Part shown: piece by piece, positions 34,300-38,053 of the stretch
Layout: every line of letters starts with the position of its first letter
Position numbering within the stretch: the stretch's first letter is position 1
DNA from: Roseomonas sp.
GTDB taxonomy: Bacteria > Pseudomonadota > Alphaproteobacteria > Acetobacterales > Acetobacteraceae
DNA: 64,000 nt
Reading direction: 5' to 3'
NCBI GenBank assembly: GCA_020249775.1
Contig: JADCFA010000023.1
Span: 1-64,000 of the forward strand
Notes under the pieces: model-generated
Seen by the model: only the letters and a program-made list of their open reading frames with translations
The model's database searches: none
What the model was told of the DNA's origin: nothing
Position numbers and translations under genes: made by a program

Positions 34300-34379
34300 G
34301 TCACGAGGGTTATGAAAAATTTCGAAAAGACCGCAAAACTCAAGACGGTGATGATTGAACAGAAAAACAGAATTTCGCA

Positions 34380-35312
34380 TCAAACCCGTTCGATCTGCCT
34401 TGAGTAGTTAACATGCCCCCTAATTCTTTGTGCATCTTCAGCCTTTACGGCGTCCTTCTCGAAGAGATGATTGAAGGCGCGAATCTTATTACGATAACCC
34501 TTAGTGAGACGGATTTTTTCGCCGTGAACAAGTAAACCATGCACCTTCAATCTTTGTGGTAATTGTACCGTTGATGTCTTCCGCTCAGCTAAACGCCAGC
34601 ACGTCTTCTCAAAAACGTTCTTAATAGCCAACAACAAATTTTCGGGCGGGCTCAATGTGCCAGAGAGGACGATATCGTCTGCATATCGTGTATATCTTGC
34701 TCCACAATTTTGAGCGATTAAAGATATCTTATCATCGATATCGCTCAGCGCTATGTTTGAAATAACAGGACTTGTTGGAGCACCTTGAGAAAGTCGCAGC
34801 TTGAAGCAAAGCAAACTTGAAAGAATCGAAATACTCGCGTCAGTTTTATAGCCGAGTTTTCGGAGTGCTTTTTCTACGGTATCAACCTTTGTTGATGGAA
34901 AGAAATTCTCGAGATCGACGGATATTACCCACTGTGCGTTCAAGTGAACACGCGCGGCCGTTATGTGAGATCGCCCTTTTACAAACCCGTGTACCGCCGG
35001 GTGCGCGCTCCATTTGTGTTCAAAGTGAATCGAAAGCCACTTTTGAATAAACTTCAATCCAACTCGAGGCGCTTCAATCTGACGAAAAGTCTTACCTTTC
35101 GGTATAGAAAACACGCGATATTGACGGTCTGGGCGATTTTGAAGCGACCATAGAAACCCTGGATTAAAGCCGGTCATGACTGCAAGCGCTTCAAGGGAGG
35201 TTACTGGAGGCAAGCCAAGAGCAGTTAGGCGAGAGATCTCCTCAGCTTCGGCCGAGGAGCAAAAAGCGCCCATCCCTAGCAGAAGGTCCTGTTCGCTGCC
35301 TGCGCACAGCAT
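34380..35312 (-). CDS. retron-type reverse transcriptase
   Basis: 310 aa from ATG 35312. The ATG at 35345 lies inside the 3' flank of the RNA element (a2), so the downstream start is preferred. RT core motifs: FSIPKGKTFRQIEAP..GLKFIQKWL (RT0-1), VISVDLENFFPS with the first catalytic aspartate (residue 133), SQGAPTSPVISNI (176-188), and RYTRYADDIVLSG with the YADD box at 210-213. Retron-specific features: an AxxH region X variant in HITAARVHLN, and a region Y VHGLLVHGEKIRLTKGYRNKIRA in place of VTG. It would copy part of the RNA encoded just upstream into multicopy single-stranded DNA. The AT-rich composition differs from its neighbours, indicating transfer. Confidence 0.9.
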   Translation of the reverse strand: MLCAGSEQDLLLGMGAFCSSAEAEEISRLTALGLPPVTSLEALAVMTGFNPGFLWSLQNRPDRQYRVFSIPKGKTFRQIEAPRVGLKFIQKWLSIHFEHKWSAHPAVHGFVKGRSHITAARVHLNAQWVISVDLENFFPSTKVDTVEKALRKLGYKTDASISILSSLLCFKLRLSQGAPTSPVISNIALSDIDDKISLIAQNCGARYTRYADDIVLSGTLSPPENLLLAIKNVFEKTCWRLAERKTSTVQLPQRLKVHGLLVHGEKIRLTKGYRNKIRAFNHLFEKDAVKAEDAQRIRGHVNYSRQIERV

Positions 35313-35331
35313 CTGACTGTAAACAGCGTGG

Positions 35332-35480
35332 TGTGGGAGCCCCATTTAGCAAAGCTCGCTTTCGTGAGCGCCGGCTCTGTTGTCGGCGATTCGAAGGAGC
35401 GCCGACAACAGAGCCGGTGTCCTTCTTTTCATAGTCTTGGCTAGTGGGCATGATGCACACCCGCGCCTGAGGCTCCCACA
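35332..35480 (-). ncRNA. retron msr-msd RNA
   Basis: Transcribed leftward between the 242-aa gene and the RT gene. TGTGGGAGCC at the 5' end (35480-35471 on the minus strand) is perfectly complementary to GGCTCCCACA at the 3' end (35341-35332), matching the a1/a2 ends of retrons. Inside, a short msr-type hairpin (35444-35460, 7 bp with one mismatch, 3-base loop) is followed by a perfect 18-bp inverted repeat at 35371-35388 / 35400-35417 with an 11-base loop, as expected for the msd stem. A smaller GCTC/GAGC hairpin follows towards a2. The priming G could not be fixed: AGG right after a1 and TAGC at 35440-35443 are candidates. Confidence 0.8.
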
Positions 35481-35488
35481 TTTCAACG

Positions 35489-36217
35489 CTAGCTGTCCTT
35501 TTTACCCAGCGCAAGAGCGCGCTTGATGTCAGGGCTTGCCCGGCTTTTTTCAGTTCCAAGTCTCCTTAGACCTTCTAAAGAAAGAAAAAATTGTCCATTC
35601 GCTTTACGAACAACTGAGCCCGCCTTACGCAACCGGTCTAAAGCGTGAGCCATCCATACCTCATTTGGAACTTTATAGCGTTTCTCCTCGAGCGAGCGCG
35701 AGAGAGAGGCCGCCGAACATGGGGCTATGATGCGGAGCGACCTGAGGATCACCGTCGGCGTTGGAATATCCTCGTCGTGCGTAAAAAACACGGATACATC
35801 ATCGATATCCAACAGCGTAAAAAACTCTCTAAGAAATTTTCGGATCTCCTCCATCTTCTCTGGATCAATGCGTTTTTTTGGTTCAACCCAAACTGAGGCG
35901 CGCTTGTAGTTGACCACTGTGAATGAATTTCGTACGATATTTTGAAATTTTGTAAACAACAGGGTCTTTATAGAGCCGTCGAATTCCTCACTTTTCTTAT
36001 CGATGAGCACGAAACCTAGCTGAATGCCCTGCCGCTCGGCGGCCGCCGAAATCGCACTTAAGGTAAGCTGACTTGGCCCCTTTTTTTTATCATCGTTGGA
36101 CGAAGCAAAAATGAATGCGACAAACCGATCGGTTTCCACATGATCCTGGATCAGGGGACCGGCAAGTCGTATTTTTTTTGCTTTAAGTAGTTGCTCGATA
36201 AAGGACAAATCAGTCAT
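35489..36217 (-). CDS. retron-associated protein of unknown function, possible C-terminal winged helix
   Basis: 242 aa starting 8 bases inside the end of the HEPN-like gene and ending 9 bases before the retron RNA. Residues about 30-125 alternate strands and helices (DRFVAFIFASSNDDKK, GIQLGFVLIDKKSEE, SFTVVNYKRASVWVEPKK), suggesting an alpha/beta domain. Residues about 155-230 (TPTVILRSLRIIAPCSAASLSRSL..VWMAHALDRLRKAGSVVRKANGQFFLSLEGLRRL) look like a winged helix-turn-helix with a beta-wing. No enzymatic motif is recognised. By position it is a candidate effector or adaptor of the retron. AT-rich like the RT gene. Confidence 0.7.
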   Translation of the reverse strand: MTDLSFIEQLLKAKKIRLAGPLIQDHVETDRFVAFIFASSNDDKKKGPSQLTLSAISAAAERQGIQLGFVLIDKKSEEFDGSIKTLLFTKFQNIVRNSFTVVNYKRASVWVEPKKRIDPEKMEEIRKFLREFFTLLDIDDVSVFFTHDEDIPTPTVILRSLRIIAPCSAASLSRSLEEKRYKVPNEVWMAHALDRLRKAGSVVRKANGQFFLSLEGLRRLGTEKSRASPDIKRALALGKKDS

Positions 36218-36698
36218 CGGCGTCCCGCCAAGCAGACTTCAGAGACGCCAAAAGAGTTCTCACGGTTTCTTCCCAGCGGTGTGCGCTATTGATATCTAAT
36301 CCATTCAACGAAAATCCATCAGGCGAATTGAATGAAACTTCGATTTCAGGCTTATAATCCGCAACTTCTCGGACTTGTCTAGCTTCCTCGATTAGCCTTT
36401 GGAGCGGCTCAATTGCTCGGAGTCCTCCATCAATCTTATTGACGAGCGTGCCATCCTCGTTCTTCTGAGCCTGTCGCTTGGCGCTCTCAAGCTTCTTTGC
36501 AATTTTACCTTCAAGGATTTCTTTTATCTTACCATGCTTGATGTTGTTTGGGGGAACATTGATTTCAATGAGGGTGGAGCGCACCAATAAAAAACAACCG
36601 TAGTAGTAACGATTGAACGCAGACCTGGCAAAGGCATCGCGCTCTGCCACTGCGTTATGGTGCGCATAGGTTCGTAGGTGATGACCGACAGCGTGCAT
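36210..36698 (-). CDS. HEPN-like protein, first gene of the retron operon
   Basis: 162 aa, mostly helical, with the pattern of small HEPN proteins: a helix RSAFNRYYYGCFLLVRSTL (residues about 25-43), a KHGKIKEIL segment, a long basic coiled region, and ARQVREVADYKPEIEV, where ADY is typical of the last HEPN helix. RTYAHH at residues 9-14 fits the R-x4-H motif of HEPN ribonucleases, but it is N-terminal rather than in the usual C-terminal place, so activity is uncertain. GAGG precedes the ATG, and a stop codon immediately before it fixes the start. Overlaps the next gene by 8 bases, indicating one transcript with the RT. Confidence 0.65.
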   Translation of the reverse strand: MHAVGHHLRTYAHHNAVAERDAFARSAFNRYYYGCFLLVRSTLIEINVPPNNIKHGKIKEILEGKIAKKLESAKRQAQKNEDGTLVNKIDGGLRAIEPLQRLIEEARQVREVADYKPEIEVSFNSPDGFSLNGLDINSAHRWEETVRTLLASLKSAWRDADD

Positions 36699-36797
36699 TC
36701 AACCCCTCAAGCCGGTTCTTGAACAGAGCACCATCTTTTTGCCTGAATTTTTTCAGTCTTTCCAGCATAATTTATAGCAAGCGATTTAATAGTAATT

Positions 36798-37388
36798 CTA
36801 CTTCGCCTGCAAAAACGCCAAGCTCTCCCCCTCCAACATCACCGCCGTCAGCCCCCCGCCAGACCAGGCGGCGGAATCAATGCAAATGCGGTTCTCCCGC
36901 ACCACGGGCATAAACCCCGCCGTATGCCCATGCACCACCACAAACCCATGATCGCGCGGGCTATTCAGAAAATCATGCCGGATGCGCAGCAAATCCTCGC
37001 GCGATTGATCCTCCAGTGCGACCCCCGGGCGAATGCCGGCATGGACGAACAAGTACCCACCTTCCTCATGCCATAGCGACAGATCACGCAGGAAGCGGCG
37101 TTGATGCGGGGCAATCGCCTCGGGCCAGGTCTCACGCGGTTCATCCGGCGCAACCCCCCAGGAATCGAGCGTCGCCCTGCCCCCGCCCCACAGCCAATCC
37201 GCCGCCGCCTCGTCACCCGAGAAATGGCCACGCGTACGCACCGCCCGGCGGAGCTTCGAATTCAAGGCCTCGATCCGCGCGACATCGGTCTGCGCGACGG
37301 AGGCGGCGGAGGCGAAGCCGAGCACCAGCGTGACGCCGAGGGAAAGGGCAGGAAGGAGCGGACGGAACCGGCGTCGCGGTATGGGCAT
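36798..37388 (-). pseudogene. truncated/chimeric metallophosphatase (PPP-type)
   Basis: The C-terminal half is clearly a Ser/Thr-phosphatase-like metallophosphatase: ADWLWGGGRATLDSWGV, YLFVHAGIRPGVALEDQSREDLL, and GFVVVHGHTAGF with the C-terminal histidine motifs. The N-terminal half of the fold (GDIHG, GDYVDRG and GNHE metal-binding blocks, about 70-80 residues) is absent. In its place is an unrelated start MPIPRRRFRPLLPAL..GFASAASVAQ resembling a signal peptide, joined near position 37220. Without the first three motifs the dimetal site cannot form, so a deletion fusing two genes is likely. The neighbouring IS630 remnant and retron island support a rearranged locus. Confidence 0.65.
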
Positions 37389-37572
37389 CTCCACGGACCC
37401 TGGCTGGGCAGGGGGGATAAAGCACCCAATCCGGCATGGCAACGCAGTGATGCGACGAAACAGCTTGGGCTGGCGGGAAATGACGCGAGGGCTACGTAGT
37501 CTGCGGGCGAGTTGCCAAGCCGCCATCATGCACCCGGCGAAATGGTGAGGCTGGCGCGGCCGGGGCACGACC

Positions 37573-38053
37573 ATGACCCATGACTGCAGGCACCACGGCA
37601 GAACGACGCTGTTCGCACCCCTCTATGTGAAGGCGGGCGCGGTCATCAGCCACTGCATGCTCCGCCACCGCGGCGCCGAATTCATCCGCTTCTCTCCGCC
37701 GGTTCGACAAGCAGACCCCGGCCGAACTCGACCGGCACCTGATCCTCGGCAAACATACCGCCCATAAGACCGAGGCCGTGAAGCGGTGGCTCGCCCGCCA
37801 TCCGCGCTGCCATGTCCACTTCACGCCGACCTCCGCCTACTCGATCAACGACGTCGCGGGCATGTTCGCCATCCTGACCGAACGGAGGCTGAGGCGCGGC
37901 GTCTTCCGCTCCGTCATCGAGCTGAAGCAGGCCATCCGTGCCTATCTCGAAGCCTTTAACGCCAAACAGACGCCCTTCCGCTGGACCGCTTCTGCCAACC
38001 CCATCATTGGCAAGCACCAGGGCAGGAAACGCCAGCTTGAAGCACTCCACTAG
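37573..38053 (+). pseudogene. IS630-family transposase remnant, frameshifted
   Basis: Starts with THDCRHHGRTTLFAPLYVKAG, the IS630 DDE block preceding the second aspartate. It shifts frame near 37690, then continues RRFDKQTPAELDRHLILGKH, RWLARHPRCHVHFTPTSA and LTERRLRRGVFRSVIEL to the stop at 38053. The N-terminal third is missing. The position of the family's D-N-x-A-x-H-K aspartate reads GKHTAHK, and the V-E-x-W-F glutamate reads VAGMF, so catalytic residues are lost as well. Dead element in antisense orientation to the neighbouring Bug gene. Confidence 0.8.

Follow-up and report, generated by a model that had tools for sequence, protein, structure and literature searches.

An apparently intact type IX retron with HEPN and winged-helix genes in a Roseomonas-like alphaproteobacterium

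In our study, the window (the whole stretch of DNA analysed, 64,000 nucleotides) was found to contain a retron locus of three genes and one noncoding RNA, in a genome of 4.07 Mb in 56 contigs. The whole system spans nucleotides 34380–36698 on the minus strand, with HEPN, winged-helix (WH), msr-msd RNA and reverse transcriptase (RT) in that order. The putative HEPN effector gene (36210–36698, 162 aa) is followed by the WH gene (35489–36217, 242 aa), the two overlapping by 8 bp. The msr-msd RNA lies at 35332–35480, from a1 to a2; its a1 arm (35468–35480) begins at base 9 past the WH stop and forms a 13-bp stem with the a2 arm (35332–35344). The RT gene follows at 34380–35345 (321 aa). This layout agrees with the sequence-only reading of the window, as does the composition: the AT-rich island which it had noticed has a GC content of 0.50 over 34–37 kb, against 0.53–0.71 in the remaining 1-kb bins. 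No promoter or terminator above chance was found at the retron locus.

The RT contained the intact catalytic motifs VDLENFF, QGAPTSP and YADD. The AxxH (A130, A131, H134) and VHG (268–270) residues of the X and Y regions, also picked out by the sequence-only reading, were invariant among 11 type IX RTs, and VHG stood in place of VTG in all 11 of these RTs as well as in retron-Kva2. In PADLOC, the library of known defence proteins on which the type IX assignment is based, the RT matched RT_IX with 426.2 bits (residues 12–320), followed by RT_III-A with 216.9 bits. The phylogenetic tree, in which 13 RTs were of type IX, 22 were others and none were group II intron or DGR rows, placed the window RT inside the type IX clade with a support of 100/100. 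A profile built from 11 sequences scored 429–511 bits on the RTs of type IX loci and at most 201 bits on the other RT loci compared. A group II intron RT was considered and rejected, as the model group_II_RT_mat scored the window RT at 61 bits against a cut-off of 300 and RT_IX was the best PADLOC model, the tree being without group II rows; the retron models of the same library as group_II_RT_mat scored 204, 151 and 144 bits, below their own cut-offs. Searches of three profile libraries gave no DGR name among the RT matches, a result which concerns names alone. The whole genome contained a single RVT_1 match, which was the retron RT.

The HEPN protein matched PADLOC HEPN_IX with 164.4 bits (covering 1–158 of 161) and the WH protein matched HTH_IX with 227.5 bits (covering 1–239 of 240), so that type IX models were found for all three proteins and no other retron type matched nearly as well. 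The PDB entry 36ht (retron-Kva2) gave the best-matching PDB chains for all three, with E = 1.6e-70 for the RT, 1.7e-19 for the HEPN and 3.3e-15 for the WH, the last a weak likeness matched from residue 80 on; the second-best PDB chains had E values of 6.8e-32, 0.36 and 0.04, respectively. The predicted structure of the HEPN protein was a HEPN fold with a pLDDT of 92.1, and its five best solved matches were all HEPN proteins, four of them HepT-like toxins. A retron with a HEPN-like and a winged-helix protein, as read from the sequence at first, is upheld, but the accessory pair, then not matched to a known module, is the described type IX module. In the Pfam search of the three proteins, RVT_1 was the sole family above cut-off, with none for WH or HEPN; the pair could look unknown because Pfam sees RVT_1 only.

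Retron-Kva2 is the type IX retron of Klebsiella variicola whose structure was determined by cryo-EM in 2026 (PDB 36ht; PMC13405049, a preprint). The preprint describes a complex of four RT, three WH, two HEPN and four msDNA, defence against T5-like phages, activation by the T5 protein D5 and loss of tRNA, with D5 proposed to engage the msDNA hairpin (PMC13405049). There, the Kva2 HEPN is described as having no canonical motif, the distant H64 and R122 are named as the active site, and mutation of H64, R122 and Y40–42 abolished defence (PMC13405049). The putative active-site residues of the window HEPN, namely H55, R110 and Y31–Y33, align with these Kva2 residues and were invariant in 11 of 11 loci, and no canonical R-phi-x-x-x-H motif was conserved, by eye, in the HEPN of the 11 loci. 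The Roseomonas locus resembles Kva2 in its four parts (HEPN, WH, ncRNA and RT), in the HEPN active-site residues, in VHG, in YADD at the identical residue numbers 221–224, and in the WH residues D197, R200 and K201 (here D194, R197 and K198). It differs in its alphaproteobacterial host, in the much diverged HEPN and WH, and in two of the five WH residues which contact the hairpin tip in Kva2 (D190 changed to V187, N193 to A190). These altered contacts point to where trigger recognition may differ from Kva2.

The RNA region 35346–35488 folds at −60.8 kcal/mol (z = −3.58), a value equalled by one of 200 shuffles; the RNA regions of four relatives gave z = −4.1, −2.3, −6.8 and −5.8. The a1/a2 pairing was 9–13 bp long in all 11 loci tested, with 0–2 of 500 shuffles as good per locus except for the locus L017 (13/500); for the window it was 0/500. 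In a comparison of 12 a1/a2 pairs over 11 loci (L063 included, L017 excluded), all 12 pairs were found in 10 loci and 11 pairs in L028. The arms of two locus groups differ at 8 of the 12 positions, and covariation was modest within the group of the window because swapped arms still pair well there. In the alignment of seven cleanly aligned RNAs, 91.8% of the cells pair, falling to 37–48% when slid by 1–3 columns. Both sides had changed in 17 of 48 pairs (shuffles 8.7 ± 1.7, 0/500 as high), and four of five covariation measures exceeded all 500 shuffles, the count of pair types being reached by 6/500. As sequences of close kin can beat such shuffles without structure, more weight is due to the slide control and to the test on held-out sources. 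The covariance model built on the seven RNAs was run on 78 loci (the window, seven held-out type IX and 70 other sources) and found six of the seven held-out sources and none of the 70 others; the match in L029 was partial, and the missed L068 contains only the 3′ end of the RNA. The window RNA scored 164.7 bits; its nearly palindromic hairpin also gave a match of 37.6 bits on the opposite strand. In the whole-genome search, the retron locus was the sole match among the 150 of 742 first-look candidates that were scored. No Rfam family covers the RNA. The msr-msd RNA is real, with an a1/a2 stem, a covarying msd hairpin and a covariance model of its own.

The tip of the msd hairpin was CTTC in the RNA, hence GAAG in the DNA, in 12 of 12 loci. 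It corresponds to G26-A27-A28-G29 of the Kva2 msDNA, where the preprint places the tip contacts, T57-T58-C59-T60 also being named (PMC13405049). When the tip G was numbered as 26, the TTCT was found at 57–60 in 5 of 11 rows and at 56–59 in the window, so that the predicted DNA end is one base off that described for Kva2. By this analogy, the predicted msDNA is a cDNA with plus-strand sequence at 35368–35426, of which the 5′ end is a guess.

The sequence-only reading had set the structured RNA, with its a1/a2 ends, directly upstream of the RT. The RNA and the pairing stood, but the a2 arm (35332–35344) was found inside the RT gene, within codons 1–5, and it lay within the first RT codons in all 12 loci (the window and 11 others). 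Counted from the opening nucleotide of the RT start codon, a2 sets in 1 to 10 nucleotides downstream: in seven loci (including the window and L063) at position two of the ATG, in the L026 group of four loci 5–7 nucleotides on, and in L017 10 nucleotides on. Thus the U and G of the RT AUG were within the a1/a2 stem in 7 of 12 loci, the window included. Residue 26 of the Kva2 RT in 36ht aligns with residue 30 of the window RT, so the Kva2 RT has roughly the length that such a start implies, and the start of the window RT is probably real. With a2 inside the RT frame, the start codon of the RT would be masked or crowded once the ncRNA folds. We suggest, as a tentative idea which we hold to be rather less probable than its opposite, that a strand of type IX RNA may serve as template or as RT message and never as both. 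If so, ribosomes opening the RT start would unmake the template, and the RT supply would be capped per transcript; such a layout, if it has any effect, would amount to a simple intrinsic control on how much RT is made.

Type IX loci were found in 14 places, namely the window, L012, a genome of the same class (L013), L016, L017 and nine contigs of a viral collection (L018, L025–L030, L063 and L068). L029 and L068 share a metagenome of origin, and each breaks off inside the RNA; if they are two halves of a single locus, as they may be, the count falls to 13. The HEPN was present in 11 of 14, the WH in 13 and the RT in 13, and every gap lay beyond a contig end; the RTs of the type IX clade are accompanied by the RNA and both genes on every contig that is long enough, as the sequence-only reading would have it, and the RTs outside the clade were without the two genes and the RNA. 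Retron type IX is rare. Among 99 related genomes, 21 gave some match to RT_IX, with more than 400 bits only in the genome of the window and in G026, the next score being 216 bits. Of 398 genomes of the phylum, two had a full-length HTH_IX, as did 1 of 397 of the family and 1 of 248 of the family of G245, the centre genome being counted each time; the third HTH_IX match in the phylum (G150) covered 50 residues with 26 bits. The 3-kb locus L015, in which neither an RT nor a HEPN of type IX was found, has a minus-strand frame (L015:1489–2031) whose product looks, by eye, like a J-domain with a segment behind it that resembles the C-terminal region of a type IX WH (26 bits).

The loci on the plasmids of Leisingera caerulea (NZ_CP081071.1, L016) and Photobacterium sp. 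TY1-4 (NZ_CP099736.1, L017) were like the window in gene order, in the 8-bp HEPN/WH overlap and in the ncRNA before the RT. Their RTs were 48% and 40% identical to the window RT, respectively, and the annotation of the two plasmids lists a reverse transcriptase family protein beside hypothetical proteins. They differ from the window in being on plasmids, whereas the window locus is in a chromosomal spacer. A DUF3800 gene was present upstream of the Leisingera retron (L016:3207–4313); DUF3800 is the partner of another retron type. The window RT was also homologous to that of Retron-Eco1 (Ec86) with E = 6.8e-32, a type II retron with another effector.

The retron is carried on an island of about 2.5 kb (34300–36797) between the end of a 3-hydroxyacyl-CoA dehydrogenase gene and the end of a phosphatase gene. 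In four related genomes (L033, L034, L035 and L040) the site was empty and the two gene ends were 2–6 bases apart, which bears out the insertion proposed from the sequence. The survey of the site covered 13 genomes of the genus (L032–L044), with the dehydrogenase 93–97% identical. Besides the four empty sites, one genome (G026) contained the retron, three (L038, L039 and L041) had frames with glycine-aspartate repeats of the RTX kind after the dehydrogenase, by eye, and three (L032, L042 and L043) had other short genes; L036 differs but ends early, and L044 is cut. The far-side phosphatase was present in L032 and L042 and was not seen in L038, L039, L041 and L043. The contents of the spacer differ among the genomes of the genus, so it looks like a variable spot. 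In the region 36798–38050, the phosphatase gene was without its N-terminal part, and its homology to relatives stops near 37208–37219. It is followed by fragments resembling a broken IS630-type transposase, without a Pfam hit.

In a sister species, the contig L012 (Roseomonas sp. MAG JADCGG010000183) contained the island at the same insertion site. The RT was 88%, the WH 85% and the HEPN 84% identical to those of the window, and the msd hairpin was identical. Substitution rates were obtained with our own script after Nei and Gojobori. The dS was 0.41 for HEPN, 0.29 for WH and 0.40 for RT, followed by 0.42 for the flanking dehydrogenase; the dN/dS was 0.23, 0.24, 0.18 and 0.05, respectively. 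The retron has probably been kept under selection, less strong than that on the dehydrogenase. As the sister shares the site and the synonymous divergence of the retron is similar to that of the flanking gene, the acquisition is not recent and the retron probably predates the split of the species. L012 differs in a one-base deletion at the overlap, which joins HEPN and WH in one frame of 402 aa (L012:407–1615); within the WH part, the first further ATG, GTG or TTG in frame is a GTG at position 950, some 20 codons on. L002 is identical with the contig L012; the fusion counts as one observation, and it could be natural or an error of sequence or assembly of the MAG. It is the second of our tentative readings: if true, the fusion would force HEPN and WH to 1:1, unlike the 3 WH to 2 HEPN of the Kva2 complex.

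We give a probability of about 0.93 to the reading that this locus of three genes and an RNA in a Roseomonas-like alphaproteobacterium is an intact type IX retron with the HEPN-release mechanism set out below. The locus is real, apparently intact and an ordinary representative of its type, and its gene content and order, conservation, RNA structure, active-site residues and purifying selection are shown by our analysis. The sequence-only reading had called it a probable new retron. A new type with an accessory pair never described would agree with the general databases, where WH and HEPN are without a Pfam family above cut-off and the RNA without an Rfam family; we hold it to be extremely improbable, being refuted by PADLOC type IX models which cover all three proteins nearly full length, by the solved retron-Kva2, which matches RT, WH and HEPN, and by a gene order common to other type IX loci. 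Judged by these matches, retron type IX is an already described anti-phage type and the locus is a further copy of it, not a new retron type.

The locus has kept its reading frames, its catalytic residues and the stems of its RNA intact, the dN/dS against the sister species is 0.18–0.24, and the msd hairpin is identical in two species otherwise 88% identical over the stretch. For these reasons we consider it very unlikely that the locus is a decayed, non-working type IX retron kept as a relic beside a truncated gene and IS remnants, which the shortened phosphatase gene, the IS630-like fragments after it (with no Pfam hit) and the lack of a promoter above chance would favour. It is likewise quite unlikely that the HEPN of a type IX retron such as this is a structural or regulatory partner rather than an RNase effector. 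That would suit the absence of a conserved canonical R-x4-H, R9 and H14 fitting the spacing in columns that are not conserved; against it, the non-canonical H, R and YYY residues, required for the defence of Kva2 (PMC13405049), are invariant in 11 of 11 loci, and among solved structures the predicted fold has its five closest matches in HEPN proteins, of which four are HepT-like toxins.

The intact type IX retron is most likely an abortive-infection system, by analogy with Kva2, in which a HEPN RNase would be restrained by RT, msDNA and WH. A single transcript probably covers the HEPN, WH, ncRNA and RT. The RNA closed by a1/a2 would be bound by the RT, which would copy the msd hairpin as a GAAG-tipped DNA some 59 nucleotides long, and a complex of RT, msDNA and WH would keep the HEPN dimer inactive. 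A phage DNA-binding protein may then engage the msDNA hairpin and disturb the complex, as proposed for T5 D5 with Kva2, and the freed HEPN RNase would act on tRNA, so that the infected cell stops growing. The complex, the msDNA, the defence, the trigger and the loss of tRNA are shown for Kva2 only (PMC13405049); what we say of the Roseomonas locus about co-transcription, about any activity and about the type of trigger is inferred.

A retron that looked new by eye is thus of a described type, found at a chromosomal site in Roseomonas-like alphaproteobacteria. As no Rfam match exists, a covariance model such as R1 could help in finding further type IX loci. The Roseomonas locus is a distant comparison for the solved Kva2 complex, and the features kept across that distance are the ones worth testing.
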